A stretch of DNA of 40,393 nt, from positions 1-40,393 of the forward strand of contig JABIEF010000069.1 in the NCBI GenBank assembly GCA_018651345.1, written 5' to 3'. The position numbers and the translations under genes were made by a program. This DNA is from Rhodobiaceae bacterium. Its GTDB lineage: Bacteria > Pseudomonadota > Alphaproteobacteria > Rhizobiales > TMED25. This document shows positions 13,398 through 38,712 of the stretch, in pieces (the stretch's first letter is position 1; each line of letters starts with the position of its first letter). The notes under the pieces are model-generated. The model was not told the DNA's origin. It made no database searches and saw only the letters and a program-made list of their open reading frames with translations.

Positions 13398-14870
13398 ATG
13401 CAATCATATGATTTAATCATCAAAAATGCACAGGTTGTAACATCTATAGAAACTAAATATGCAGATATTGGTATAAAAGATCAAAAAATAATTGCTATTG
13501 GAAATAATTTAATAAATTCAAAAGAAACTATAGATGCAACTGGCAAATACATATTGCCTGGTGGTATTGATAGCCATTGTCATATCGAACAAAAGTCTGC
13601 ATCTGGTTTAATTAATTCTGATACATTCGAAAGTGCTACTAAAGCTGCTGCGCTTGGAGGAAACACCTCAATAATTCCGTTTGCCGCACAATATGAAGGT
13701 TTTACTTTAACGGAAACACTCGAAGATTATCATAAATTGGCTAAAAAGGGTTCAATAATAGATTATGCAATGCATATGATTATAGCTGGACCAAATAATG
13801 ATTTATTGAACTTAGAATTACCAGAGCAAATTAGATTAGGGCATTCTTCTATTAAAATTTTTATGACATATGACCGTCTAAAAATTGAAGATATAGATAT
13901 ATTAAATATTTTTGAAAAAGCTAGAGATATGGAGGCTTTTATATCTGTTCATGCTGAAAATCACGGTATGATTACATGGATGGTAAGTAAATTGCTAGAA
14001 AAAGGTTACACACATCCAAAGTTTCATTCGGTAAGTCATCCTGTGGCTGGCGAAGTAGAAGCTATAAACAGAATTATAGGTATCTCTGAATTGATGGATC
14101 AGCCAGTAATGATTTTTCATGTTTCTTCTGAAAAAGGAGTTGAAGTAATTCGTAATGCACAAGCTAGAGGGGTTAAGATATTTGCAGAAACTTGTGTTCA
14201 ATACCTAACTCTAACATCGGATGAAATGGATAAACCGGGTGTTGAAGGAGGTAAATGGATTTGCAGTCCTCCATTAAGGAAAACTCGAGATCAAAATGCA
14301 TTGTGGGATGCAGTAAAGGATAACACTTTATGTTTAATTTCATCTGACCATGCTCCATATAGCTTTGACAGTAATGGTAAGCTATTTAAAGGAGAAAACC
14401 CTAATTTTAAAGAAATACCAAATGGTATGCCTGGTCTAAATTGGAGGTTACCGATCTTGTTTGATGAAATTGTAAATAAACGTAGAAAAAATTTAAGTAT
14501 CAATGATTTTGTAAGATTGACATCAACATCCCCAGCTAAGATATATGGTTTGTACCCTCAAAAAGGAGATATTGAAATAGGTTGTGATGCAGACTTAGTG
14601 ATATGGGATCCAGAGGCGATAACAGAATTATCAGACGATATGGTAGTTGATGGTTCTGGATATAACCCATATTCAGGTAGAATAATAAAAGGCTGGCCTG
14701 AAACAGTCATTTTAAGGGGTTATATGATTGTTTTTAATAATAAGGTTATTGCGGATCCTGGAAATGGAAATTTTTTACCAACTAAATTAAGCGCTAATGT
14801 AAAACCAAAAGGTATTATTGCACACGATCTATTAAAAGAGAATAATTATGGAGCAAATTTACAAAGCTAA
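13398..14870 (+). CDS. Dihydropyrimidinase / D-hydantoinase
   Basis: This is a 490-residue cyclic amidohydrolase of the dihydropyrimidinase family, cleaving the ring amide of dihydrouracil, dihydrothymine or hydantoins. Metal ligands fit the family: HCH at His60/His62, the carboxylated Lys153 in SIKIFMTYD, His185 (VHAEN), His241 (FHVSSEKG) and Asp317 (SSDHAPYSF). Tyr158 matches the substrate-binding tyrosine. It lies alone, without a visible dihydropyrimidine dehydrogenase or beta-ureidopropionase gene, so the pathway cannot be completed here. Allantoinase or a related amidohydrolase is less likely because the GGIDSH and IKIFMTY contexts favour dihydropyrimidinase. It overlaps the purH stop by 4 bp in convergent orientation. 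Confidence 0.9.
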   Translation: MQSYDLIIKNAQVVTSIETKYADIGIKDQKIIAIGNNLINSKETIDATGKYILPGGIDSHCHIEQKSASGLINSDTFESATKAAALGGNTSIIPFAAQYEGFTLTETLEDYHKLAKKGSIIDYAMHMIIAGPNNDLLNLELPEQIRLGHSSIKIFMTYDRLKIEDIDILNIFEKARDMEAFISVHAENHGMITWMVSKLLEKGYTHPKFHSVSHPVAGEVEAINRIIGISELMDQPVMIFHVSSEKGVEVIRNAQARGVKIFAETCVQYLTLTSDEMDKPGVEGGKWICSPPLRKTRDQNALWDAVKDNTLCLISSDHAPYSFDSNGKLFKGENPNFKEIPNGMPGLNWRLPILFDEIVNKRRKNLSINDFVRLTSTSPAKIYGLYPQKGDIEIGCDADLVIWDPEAITELSDDMVVDGSGYNPYSGRIIKGWPETVILRGYMIVFNNKVIADPGNGNFLPTKLSANVKPKGIIAHDLLKENNYGANLQS

Positions 14871-16450
14871 TGTCTGAAATGTCTTATTCCAGTAAATACC
14901 ATCGAAACATTAGCGTCATCAGCTGCCTTAATCACCTCGTTATCTCTCATTGATCCTCCAGGTTGAATAACTGCTGTTGCCCCAACTTCTATAGCCGCCT
15001 CTAACCCATCAGAAAAAGGGAAAAAAGCATCTGAAGCAATAACACATCCGTTAGCGAGTGATTTGTCCATATTTAATAATTTTGATGCATAATCTGCTTT
15101 ATAAGCAGCTATTCTAGAAGAGTCTACCCTACTCATTTGACCAGCACCAATACCAACAGTAGATTGATTTTTTGCATAAATAATTGCATTTGATTTAACA
15201 TGTTTTGCAATTTTGAAAGCAAAAATTAAATCAGATATTTCTTCATCTGATGGTATTTTTTTGGTAACAACTTTCAGATTTTCTTTGGTTATAATTAAAT
15301 CATCACGATCTTGAATTAAGAAACCTCCAAAAACTGATTTTATAATTTTATTATCTACCTCTGAATTATATATATTATTTAATAAAAGTAATCTTAGGTT
15401 TTTCTTCTCTTTAACTATATCAATGGCTTCTTCTGTTGCGCTTGGAGCAATTATCACTTCTGAAAAAACTTTAATGATATTCTTAGCAGTTGAAGCATCT
15501 AACTCTTTATTAGAAACAATAATACCACCAAAAGCACTAACTGGATCACAGCGAAGAGCTAGCCTGTATGCCTCGTTTAGATTTTTTGCAGATGCAACAC
15601 CACATGGATTTGCATGTTTTATAATGGCTATAGTCGGTTGGGAGTTTTTAAAATCTAATATTAGTTGTAGAGCGGCATCGGTATCATTGATATTATTATA
15701 AGATAGCTCTTTTCCTTGTATCTGTTTCATCTGGCCTATCCCAGAATTGTTATTTATAGAGTAGAAATCAGCAGTTTGATGTGGATTTTCTCCATATCTT
15801 AATTTCTTATTCAACTGACCAGAGAGATTATAGGAATCTACATCAGAAGAATCAATTTGTTTGGAAAACCAGTTAGATATTATAGAATCATACTTTGCTG
15901 TATGAGAAAAAGCCTTGTAAGCTAATTTTAATCTTAAGCTATTGCTTGTACCTCCAAACTTATTTATGTGATCGCTTATTTCTTGGTATGAATTTGAATC
16001 AGTAGCAATTGTTACCCTGCTATGATTTTTCGCGGATGCTCTGATGATAGTTGGTCCACCAATATCAATATTTTCAATAATCTTTTCGAAATCAGTAGTT
16101 GAATTAATTGTTTCTTCAAATGGATATAGATTTACAATAGCTAAATCAATGTTTGATATATTTAATTCATCCATTGTTTTTTTGTCTTCTCCATTATCAG
16201 CTCTTGATAATAATCCTGCATGAATAATTGGATGTAGTGTTTTTACTCTTCCTCCTAATATTTCAGGATATTTTGTAATATCAGAAACTTTTGTTACCTT
16301 AATACCATTGTCGGTAAGTAATTTAGCGGTACCCCCGGTAGATATAATTTCAACATTTTGCTGAATTAAAAATTTGGCAAATGGCAATAAACCACTTTTA
16401 TCGTAGACGCTGATTAGAGCTTTTCTAATTTTTATATATTCTTTATCCAT
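14867..16450 (-). CDS. purH: Bifunctional AICAR transformylase / IMP cyclohydrolase
   Basis: This is a 527-residue PurH that catalyses the last two steps of IMP synthesis: formylation of AICAR and ring closure of FAICAR. The N-terminal MGS-like domain (about 1-150) has KALISVYDKSGL, ISTGGTAKLL and GRVKTLHPIIHAGLL. The AICARFT part has LRYGENPHQ, KHANPCGVA (catalytic Lys-His) and the C-terminal QPGGSMRD and VFTGIRHF. It is complete and of normal length. GAAGAA precedes the ATG. It follows rsmB on the same strand with a 36-bp gap, an arrangement seen in other alphaproteobacteria. Confidence 0.98.
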   Translation of the reverse strand: MDKEYIKIRKALISVYDKSGLLPFAKFLIQQNVEIISTGGTAKLLTDNGIKVTKVSDITKYPEILGGRVKTLHPIIHAGLLSRADNGEDKKTMDELNISNIDLAIVNLYPFEETINSTTDFEKIIENIDIGGPTIIRASAKNHSRVTIATDSNSYQEISDHINKFGGTSNSLRLKLAYKAFSHTAKYDSIISNWFSKQIDSSDVDSYNLSGQLNKKLRYGENPHQTADFYSINNNSGIGQMKQIQGKELSYNNINDTDAALQLILDFKNSQPTIAIIKHANPCGVASAKNLNEAYRLALRCDPVSAFGGIIVSNKELDASTAKNIIKVFSEVIIAPSATEEAIDIVKEKKNLRLLLLNNIYNSEVDNKIIKSVFGGFLIQDRDDLIITKENLKVVTKKIPSDEEISDLIFAFKIAKHVKSNAIIYAKNQSTVGIGAGQMSRVDSSRIAAYKADYASKLLNMDKSLANGCVIASDAFFPFSDGLEAAIEVGATAVIQPGGSMRDNEVIKAADDANVSMVFTGIRHFRH

Positions 16451-16486: not shown

Positions 16487-17809
16487 CTATGCATCTATTT
16501 TCTCGATCATAGAAATAAAGAATCCATCATTTCCACCATTTTCTAACATATTAGGTAATATTCTTATATCACCTTTTGGTGTAAGGGATGTATTAAATCC
16601 ATCTAAATGCATCGGATCAATTTTTCTTCTTCGTACATTTTTATTTTTTGATATAAATTTATCAATTTGCTCTTCCCCTTCTTCGGTCTCCAAAGAACAG
16701 GTACAGTAGATAATGATACCGCCATCTTTAAGCATTTTTATAGAAGATTTTAATAAGTTTTTTTGAACATTCATACAATATTCAAGGTTTTTAATATTAA
16801 CTCTATGTAAGATATCTGGATGCCTTCTTATAACACCGGTTGAGGTGCATGGCGGATCTAGTAATATTACATCAGCTAAATTTTTAGGTTTAAAAGTTAA
16901 CCCGTCATTACAAATTATTGTTGCAGTGAATTTTAATCTTTTAAGATTTTCATCTAGTATTTTAATTCTATCTTTGTTTATGTCTAGAGCTGTTACAATA
17001 GCTCCATTATTGATTAGTCCAGCAGTTTTACCTCCAGGAGCCGAGCACATATCTATAATATTTTTATTTTTTATATCTCCCAGAATTTTTACCGGGATAG
17101 TTGCTGCCGCATCCTGAACCCACCAATCACCGGTGTCATAACCCTCAATATCTGGTATATAGGAAAAATTTTGTAGACGGACAGACCCAGATTTTGTCAC
17201 AGTACCGTTTAGTTTTTTTGCCCATTCTATAGGATTTTCTTTTACGGTTAGATCTAATGGTGGTTCTATGATTTGTGCAGAACATATTTGTTTTAATAAA
17301 ACTTCCCCATACTGTAATAACCATCTTTTTTTTATCCACTTAGGTAAAATAAGGACAGGGTTATTATACTCTTTAATAAGTAATTCTTTCTCCAAACTTA
17401 TCCTTCTAAGGATTGCATTTACGAGATTCTTTAAAAATTTACCTTTATTTTGATTTTTGGTTAATCCTATAGCAATATTAACAACCGCATATGCAGGCGT
17501 ATTTAAATAAAGTATTTGGCAGAGACTAATGCAAAGAATATTATGCACAGAATGAGAATGGGTTTTTATTGATTTTTTAATATATTTTTCTAGGATCAGT
17601 TCAATAACATTGTATCTTCTTAATGTTGTTAAGGCAATCAATCTTCCAAGTGAAATATCTCTCTTGTCTGCAGACGAAAATGGTTTTTTCTTTATAATAT
17701 TTTCTATTGATTCTTGAAAATTTTTATTATCTATAGTTATGTCATTTATTATTTCGAGAGCAAAAGCTCTTGATATAGAACCATTCTCTTCTTTTTTATT
17801 GTAAGTCAG
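16487..17809 (-). CDS. rsmB: 16S rRNA (cytosine-967-C5) methyltransferase RsmB, apparent CTG start
   Basis: The C-terminal methyltransferase has the SAM site DMCSAPGGKTAGL, DPPCTSTGVIRRHPDI, and the catalytic-cysteine motif YCTCSLETEEGEEQ. The N-terminal NusB-like RNA-binding part extends well upstream of the first usual start (TTG at 17641). The same frame continues through SISRAFALEIIND and KPFSSADKRDISLGRLI, which match RsmB N-termini, back to a TAA at 17858-17860. It contains no ATG, GTG or TTG. A CTG at 17809 lies 8 bases after GGAG (17818-17821) and would give a normal length of 440 residues, so I chose it. ATC at 17812 is an alternative. It is divergent from the DUF1674 gene and upstream of purH. 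Confidence 0.88.
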   Translation of the reverse strand: MTYNKKEENGSISRAFALEIINDITIDNKNFQESIENIIKKKPFSSADKRDISLGRLIALTTLRRYNVIELILEKYIKKSIKTHSHSVHNILCISLCQILYLNTPAYAVVNIAIGLTKNQNKGKFLKNLVNAILRRISLEKELLIKEYNNPVLILPKWIKKRWLLQYGEVLLKQICSAQIIEPPLDLTVKENPIEWAKKLNGTVTKSGSVRLQNFSYIPDIEGYDTGDWWVQDAAATIPVKILGDIKNKNIIDMCSAPGGKTAGLINNGAIVTALDINKDRIKILDENLKRLKFTATIICNDGLTFKPKNLADVILLDPPCTSTGVIRRHPDILHRVNIKNLEYCMNVQKNLLKSSIKMLKDGGIIIYCTCSLETEEGEEQIDKFISKNKNVRRRKIDPMHLDGFNTSLTPKGDIRILPNMLENGGNDGFFISMIEKIDA

Positions 17810-17859
17810 GATATAATCTCCATATTGTAATATATTATTATAGATTATATATAAACCTT

Positions 17860-18048
17860 ATGAGTAAATATATGAATAAAGAAATAAATACATCTTCTTC
17901 GGCGGCACAAAGAGCTTTGAAGGAAGCTGAAGAAAGAAAGAAAAATGAAGAGAAAAATTCACGACCAAAAGAAGTTAATGGTCCTAAAGGTTTAGAGCCC
18001 ACAAGATACGGAGATTGGGAGAGAAAAGGAATAGCTTCAGATTTCTAA
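17860..18048 (+). CDS. DUF1674 / SDHAF4-family protein
   Basis: This is a 62-residue protein with a charged, Lys/Glu-rich helix (about 20-45) and the invariant C-terminal block GPKGLEPTRYGDWERKGIAS ending in Asp-Phe, the signature of DUF1674. Mitochondrial SDHAF4 binds the flavinylated SdhA subunit during complex II assembly; a similar role in alphaproteobacteria is an inference. No sdh genes are nearby. Translation may start at 17860 or at an in-frame ATG 4 codons later. It is convergent with acs (18-bp gap) and divergent from rsmB. Confidence 0.9.
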   Translation: MSKYMNKEINTSSSAAQRALKEAEERKKNEEKNSRPKEVNGPKGLEPTRYGDWERKGIASDF

Positions 18049-37281: not shown

Positions 37282-38712
37282 TTAAAGAAATTGGCTAATA
37301 AATATAACCCAACAAGATAATAACAAACCTCCCGTTAATGTAAATAGTCCGTTCCACTTTAATCCTGCTTGGATAGGTGTAATTTTAGCGAGGTCGGCAA
37401 TTAATAATGTAGAGGCGGTATAAGGCGAGCTAATTCCCGATAAGGCCCACCCAGAAGTTAGGGCTAATATTATTGCATTCGGCGAGACACCTAAGTTAGC
37501 TGCTTGCGGAAGTAGTGGGGCTATCAGATAAACTGCTAAAATAGGATTCATACCTATTTGGCCAGTTATTGGCATTAGCCATAATATTCCTACTAGCACC
37601 AACCAGGAGGGAATAGAGGAGAAATTAATTACATCACCATTAATATAGGGAGCTATAATACTAGATGCCATGGTGCCGATAAATGCTGCCATAATTAATA
37701 ATATTAACTCTGATTTATAGTTTACTATATCTTTAAATATGTATCCAGAAACCCTCTCTTTAGTTCTTATATATAAAATATTTAAGTTTTTGCTATTATA
37801 GTTCTGATAGATAATCCAGAATAAACTAAATATTGGAACTATAAGCATTACAACAGCAACCGCTCTTAGATCTGTGATATATTGTATTGATCCTATTAAG
37901 CTTAGTAAAAAAATAAATAAGAATAAAAGCGGCATTACAGTATTCCAAGAACCTGTTTTTCTGATTAAGTTATTTGAATCTATATTAATTTTAGATTTAT
38001 AGAAAAAATCAAGTAATAACCCTAGTGCCATCAGGATTAACGCACTTATAAAACAAGGGATAGCAGCTCCAGACCAAGATGATCCATCAATTAATGAAGT
38101 TGTTATTGCAATAGAAAAAGTGAGAGGTGACCAACATGTCATTGCTATAAAACCTCTTTGTACAGCCAATAACATTCTTTTTGTTCTAATCTTTCTAATC
38201 TCAATATTTGCTTCTTTTCTAGCTCCTCTTTCTGCTAAACTGCCAAGTAATGAAATTGCTCCATAACTTAGTATCACGCCGTATATATGCCCCCCTAGTA
38301 CCAATGCTAAGCATCTTTTACTTGGATTTTGATTAGCTAAGAATTCACCGCATTTTTCTATAGCATGAGAGGAAGATGCTGCATTTCTTAGGCAAGATAA
38401 AGATAGAAAGAAGGCGGCTACGAAAGCAGAACTTTGAAGTGAAGTTTGAATTAAACTCGGCCATGTAGGTATTTTTATTATTGCTAATATTATTAAGATG
38501 AACCCAGTAAATACAAAAATTTTTCTTGAAAGCTGAAGATTATTTAATGAAATTAAGACAAATATTCCAATTATTATACTAGCTATTAAATAGAAAAAAT
38601 TTCCAACTCCCCACTCTGCAAGTACTACAAAAGCAATACAGGAAAATAGTAAAATAGAAGAAAGGTAATTTCTATATTTCTCATATCTTTCAAAATATTG
38701 AATATTTATAAT
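37282..38712 (-). CDS. Putative permease of the ion-transporter type; apparent non-ATG start
   Basis: This highly hydrophobic protein has about 10-12 predicted membrane helices. Segments GQIGMNPILAVYLIAPLLP and SGWALSGISSPYTASTLLIA resemble the hairpin/proline-rich motifs of ion-transporter-superfamily secondary carriers, but I do not recognise the exact family. A shorter frame would start at a TTG (38304). The same frame is open another 136 codons with protein-like sequence (residues FERYEKYRNYLSSILL, then membrane helices) back to a TAG at 38713-38715, without any ATG, GTG or TTG. AGGA at 38717-38720 precedes ATT (38712) by 4 and ATA (38709) by 7 bases, so one of these is the likely start, giving about 476 residues. 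It is followed by a 62-residue membrane protein gene. Confidence 0.75.
   Translation of the reverse strand: MINIQYFERYEKYRNYLSSILLFSCIAFVVLAEWGVGNFFYLIASIIIGIFVLISLNNLQLSRKIFVFTGFILIILAIIKIPTWPSLIQTSLQSSAFVAAFFLSLSCLRNAASSSHAIEKCGEFLANQNPSKRCLALVLGGHIYGVILSYGAISLLGSLAERGARKEANIEIRKIRTKRMLLAVQRGFIAMTCWSPLTFSIAITTSLIDGSSWSGAAIPCFISALILMALGLLLDFFYKSKINIDSNNLIRKTGSWNTVMPLLFLFIFLLSLIGSIQYITDLRAVAVVMLIVPIFSLFWIIYQNYNSKNLNILYIRTKERVSGYIFKDIVNYKSELILLIMAAFIGTMASSIIAPYINGDVINFSSIPSWLVLVGILWLMPITGQIGMNPILAVYLIAPLLPQAANLGVSPNAIILALTSGWALSGISSPYTASTLLIADLAKITPIQAGLKWNGLFTLTGGLLLSCWVIFISQFL

Follow-up and report, generated by a model that had tools for sequence, protein, structure and literature searches.

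How does translation of rsmB begin in a genome whose rsmB frame offers no ATG, GTG or TTG across its N-terminal block? We examined this question in a window of 40,393 nucleotides, the whole stretch of DNA analysed here, from a small-genome marine bacterium (Rhodobiaceae bacterium, contig JABIEF010000069.1). The original prediction held that rsmB starts at a CTG, behind a GGAG and overlapping the stop of a five-codon open reading frame, and left a mutation or sequencing error as the alternative. For comparison within the genus there was one other genome, an independently assembled uncultured Rhizobiales MAG (G001, contig CAJIYR010000007.1).

The rsmB frame and its N-terminal block

The rsmB frame is open on the minus strand from 17857 to its stop at 16487 and encodes a NusB-like domain (PF01029, residues 13-137, 68.6 bits against a cut-off of 23.1) followed by an RsmB/F methyltransferase domain (PF01189, residues 246-434, 154.6 bits against a cut-off of 27), which is the architecture of RsmB. 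RsmB models are also the best-matching NCBIfam families, with scores below the equivalog cut-offs (256.3 versus 375, 255.4 versus 319 and 224.1 versus 269.05 bits), and the translation contains, by eye, two cysteine motifs that we take to be the PC and TC motifs. By architecture and best match, we assign the protein as an RsmB homologue of a divergent lineage, for which C967 methylation is a prediction. A protein search returned matches in 60 of 61 genomes; the window protein and that of G001 are 95% identical. Downstream and in the same direction lies an open reading frame (14867-16450) whose translation reads as purH. Upstream, rsmB and the divergent DUF1674 gene have about 50 bases of invariant DNA in common, in which both promoters must sit. 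A promoter scan returned zero sites on the rsmB strand, and predicted RNA folding of the start region was ordinary (z 0.60).

Table 1 Positions of the features discussed, numbered along the window.
Feature	Position	Strand	Remarks
rsmB, NusB-like domain and m5C methyltransferase domain	16487..17812	-	PF01029 and PF01189 above cut-off; open frame kept in G001
rsmB stop codon	16489-16487	-	End of the open frame
TTG, first canonical start in the rsmB frame	17639..17641	-	TTA in G001; rejected as start
CTG, candidate start	17807..17809	-	In frame, 8 bases after GGAG; identical in G001
ATC, equally plausible candidate start	17810..17812	-	In frame, 5 bases after GGAG; identical in G001
GGAG, Shine-Dalgarno-like motif	17818..17821	-	5 bases before ATC, 8 before CTG
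Five-codon mini-ORF MEIIS, ATG 17823 to TGA 17808-17806	17806..17823	-	Overlaps CTG as CTGA; probably incidental
Block identical in both genus genomes (95 bases)	17797..17891		Spans the rsmB start region and the beginning of the divergent DUF1674 gene
DUF1674 gene	17860-18048	+	Divergent from rsmB
Membrane protein, second window gene without a usable canonical start	37282..38709	-	Frame opens (38712) with ATT ATA behind AAGGA

As originally described, the frame continues for at least 56 codons above TTG 17641 without a standard start: 72 codons contain zero in-frame ATG, GTG or TTG, and 56 of these lie at or below CTG 17809. The accompanying claim that this stretch encodes family-like residues was borne out by comparison with nine proteins from a sister genus of the same family. 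Residues 14-56 share 106 identities with these proteins, against a maximum of 81 in 2,000 shuffles, and residues 1-13 share 35, a value reached in 2 of 2,000 shuffles (mean about 11). With the upstream codons included, the protein covers positions 3-131 of the 133-position NusB profile; from TTG 17641, it covers positions 53-131. Moreover, a glycine four residues before Arg14 (Gly-x-x-x-Arg) is kept in all 30 loci examined. NusB coverage, glycine conservation and N-terminal homology beyond shuffles therefore place the start above Gly10, and no canonical start is compatible with the conserved RsmB N-terminus.

Starts further down the frame fared poorly. TTG 17641, the first normal start in the original prediction, is TTA in G001, its use would cost about 50 positions of the NusB profile, and the homologous block reaches above it. 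Starting at ATA 17776 would leave out Gly10, part of the Gly-x-x-x-Arg motif. The first canonical start in G001 is a GTG at codon 88.

The N-terminal block has itself diverged. Over residues 14-56, identity to the sister genus is 27%, against 44-54% among the subgroups of that genus. Between the window and G001, codons 1-56 carry 4 nonsynonymous and 1 synonymous differences, compared with 18 and 37 in codons 57-440 (Fisher p 0.056, on small counts), and codons 1-56 show no third-position excess of changes. Constraint on the N-terminal block may thus be relaxed in this genus.

Candidate start codons and rival explanations

Above Gly10, we identify two near-cognate codons, ATC 17812 and CTG 17809, as the only ones with a suitably spaced Shine-Dalgarno (SD)-like motif. 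The GGAG 8 bases before CTG and the short open reading frame ending in CTGA are both present as predicted; the ATC, in frame and directly upstream of CTG, was absent from the original account. SD-like motifs precede 32 of 134 first canonical starts versus 66 of 815 internal ATGs (window plus G001 C7), and the motif stands at a working distance from ATC and CTG alike. Four of the 32 SD-bearing starts have a spacing of 5 and four a spacing of 8, so that spacing does not decide between the two codons. The GGAG is called SD-like by motif rather than against the host anti-SD, a search with RF00177 (16S rRNA) having given no match in the G000 or G001 genome. Both ATC and CTG are kept in the two genus members, but so is everything around them: the invariant 95-base block ranks eighth in length among the identical runs of a 40-kb alignment whose overall identity is 88.5%. 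Comparison with orthologues cut both ways for the proposed CTG, which is retained in the genus mate, whereas all ten cleanly readable sister-genus loci carry an in-frame ATG nearby.

We weighed four other accounts of this region. RsmB could begin at the GTG of codon 88 in this genus, leaving the N-terminal part untranslated and most of the NusB-like domain lost. This GTG is kept in both genus genomes, and the excess of nonsynonymous differences in codons 1-56, together with their more-than-expected divergence from the sister genus, would fit such a loss. The GTG has no SD, however, and in both genomes the 87 codons above it form an uninterrupted frame. Codons 57-160, nearly a third of which lie above codon 88, differ by 10 synonymous and 3 nonsynonymous changes, and the matches of residues 1-13 and 14-56 to the family exceed shuffles, so that we regard a start at codon 88 as improbable. 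Slightly less credit goes to translational coupling, the role originally suggested for the CTGA, in which the mini-ORF would be translated from ATG 17823 to its TGA and ribosomes would re-initiate at the overlapping CTG. The junction is real and occurs in both genus genomes, and re-initiation is reported to depend on SD and IF3 (PMC2268962). Yet a mini-ORF stop overlaps the first canonical start in 26 of 465 G001 cases and a random internal codon in 461 of 9,500; because overlap at starts is about as frequent as at random codons, the junction carries no weight alone. ATG 17823 moreover has no SD and itself overlaps the GGAG. By eye, in an unscored inspection, none of the near-cognate start regions of other family genes that we viewed has a CTGA-like junction. 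Since the whole block is invariant, conservation of the mini-ORF in G001 is uninformative.

Initiation at ATG 17823 followed by a -1 shift into the rsmB frame before the TGA is highly unlikely. Sister-genus rsmB does start at an in-frame ATG in a similar AATATG context, and ATG 17823 may be ancestral; but the shift would have to fall within five codons of the start, and by eye the stretch from ATG to TGA contains no slippery heptamer, with ATA and TCC unable to re-pair one base back. That the start region carries an assembly or sequencing error, or was recently inactivated by mutation, deserves equally little credence. The window does come from a draft assembly of 79 contigs, but the same 95 bases recur in the independent G001 MAG and the remainder of rsmB is intact in both genus genomes, which, barring an artefact shared by both assemblies, removes the alternative that the original prediction had left standing.

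On these grounds, we consider it likely that translation of rsmB in this genus begins at a near-cognate codon, ATC 17812 or CTG 17809. The proposal of a near-cognate start is thereby supported, while CTG as the exact codon is undecided, given that ATC fits equally well. The choice between the two is roughly even, with CTG weakened relative to ATC because none of the other near-cognate cases that we found in the host family uses CTG.

Apparent near-cognate starts elsewhere in the host family

Several other genes in this bacterial family appear to begin at near-cognate codons, chiefly isoleucine codons. infC has an ATA start with a GGAG 7 bases upstream in six of six family genomes (L040, L041 and L042-L045). 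The conserved block of an MFS transporter (L036:19905 onward; G001 C7 59905-61140) opens with ATT in 13 of 13 family genomes, although in G004 an upstream TTG could serve too. An M20 peptidase (L049:4554-5756) has GGAG followed 7-8 bases on by ATT, ATC or ATA in 11 of 12 genomes, all that are readable in that frame; in several genomes, a TTG or GTG is also present 16-25 codons into the frame. A gene named polA from its sequence has AGGA and then ATA in both genus members; a GTG five codons further on could serve too in G001.

A contrast between families came from an NAD-epimerase-like protein (L051:16530-17501), compared across 30 loci out of the 60 genomes with a match. No canonical start lies within 20 codons above the GGxGF motif in any of 13 readable loci of the host family, a count that sets aside a GTG two codons before GGxGF in G007 and a fourteenth, unreadable locus. 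In other families, a canonical start lies 7-15 codons above the motif in 15 of 15 readable loci, the sixteenth being unreadable (Fisher 2.7e-8). The window itself holds a second such gene, encoding a membrane protein, which probably starts at ATA 38709 after AAGGA. Its first canonical start, TTG 38304, lies 136 codons into the conserved frame; in the region upstream of that TTG, 30 of 37 base changes relative to G001 fall at third codon positions, and the homologous start place is occupied by ATG in 11 sister-genus loci. A stealth-type protein (L064:6952-7992; G001 C5) likewise has a conserved N-terminus above its first canonical start and looks near-cognate. In this protein, the M20 peptidase and the epimerase, the near-cognate isoleucine codons stand behind SD-like motifs.

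A survey of 213 ortholog pairs between G001 and G010 gave 16 flagged rows, from which five G001 genes, rsmB included, were judged near-cognate; the 11 rows dropped comprised extensions that were short or of low identity, leaders with an SD, one apparent frameshift in G001 and one unresolved sister-genus gene. Genome-wide motif counts were less telling. ATA behind SD motifs was observed 8 times versus 2.8 expected in G000, 10 versus 5.3 in G001 and 3 versus 3.4 in G010, several of these ATA codons directly preceding an ATG, and ATT was near expectation in all three genomes. Near-cognate codons behind SD motifs are thus weakly enriched overall, and it is gene-by-gene conservation, not SD-motif statistics, that carries the case for a family habit. 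This family-wide use of isoleucine start codons is, in our view, a more interesting matter than rsmB itself.

Origin, initiation machinery and known systems

The near-cognate rsmB start would be particular to this genus. In the sister genus, an in-frame ATG lies a few codons above the block in 10 of 10 loci read (nine intact sequences in the alignment plus L027, which has many N), with no GGAG before it, whereas in the window genus a similar AATATG context holds an ATG that is out of frame. A small indel close to the 5' end probably shifted an ancestral ATG out of frame, and the GGAG would have rescued initiation. The GGAG at 17821-17818 would place ATC 17812 or CTG 17809 in the P site, where the ordinary initiator tRNA would read the near-cognate codon as formyl-Met; such a start would be expected to initiate at low efficiency and to be sensitive to IF3. 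Peculiarities of the machinery do not appear to account for it. In the anticodon stem of the initiator tRNA, A29-U41 replaces the first of three G-C pairs at all 30 loci (L204, L206-L235), a feature shared by the host family and others that leaves a special initiator tRNA unsupported as the cause. An altered IF3 is equally unsupported: IF3 of the host family is ordinary in alignment, matching solved IF3 chains normally. Taken together, the comparisons favour a tolerated family habit over a special device of rsmB.

Gene callers limited to ATG, GTG and TTG would cut 56 to 87 residues off RsmB here and would remove comparable pieces from other proteins of the host family. If the starts are real, this family offers a natural test bed for bacterial tolerance of weak start codons. 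We also considered whether the genes with AUU, AUC, AUA or CUG starts (infC, rsmB, polA and others) form an initiation-stringency group with shared feedback on ribosome fidelity. RsmB would methylate the P-site base C967 and IF3 would police start codons; low RsmB or IF3 would then loosen start selection and yield more translation of rsmB, infC and the others. Such a loop is thinkable because m5C967, the RsmB product, is described as abutting the P-site initiator tRNA and affecting initiation (PMC7949028). The near-cognate set in the host family includes genes unrelated to translation, which counts against this reading, and we hold shared feedback to be a long shot.

Near-cognate starts are already known in bacteria, and rsmB would join them as a new member. 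Five of the 213 genes compared appear near-cognate in G001, against the few per genome usually cited for E. coli. In E. coli, infC has a near-cognate start and is autoregulated by IF3, and pcnB is said to be a second chromosomal AUU example, comparable to rsmB as a weak start in an RNA-processing gene but differing in gene and codon. A literature search by title found nothing on rsmB with a CTG start and no report of start codons in the host family. In S. aureus, infC, cvfC1, ccpN and citZ are reported to initiate at near-cognate codons behind a strong SD; for cvfC1 (AUU), ccpN and citZ (AUA), measured by ribosome profiling and reporters, initiation is put at about 10% of the AUG level (PMC13009471). 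Excess IF3 is reported to lower initiation at non-canonical starts (PMC2268962), and in Streptomyces IF3 is described as repressing sigR, which has a weak GTC start (PMC5472188). Like infC of E. coli and S. aureus (AUU/AUA, IF3-autoregulated), rsmB would place a near-cognate start behind an SD in a translation gene; infC combines a strong SD with autoregulation, whereas rsmB would have ATC or CTG behind a plain GGAG and is known here from its sequence. As described in these reports, the starts of cvfC1, ccpN and citZ were measured experimentally and have a strong SD, and sigR combines proven repression by IF3 with a regulatory role; rsmB, with an SD that is not extended, stands beside them on sequence evidence. 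With cvfC1, ccpN and citZ it would share an SD-guided near-cognate start in an ordinary gene, and with sigR a weak start in a cellular gene.
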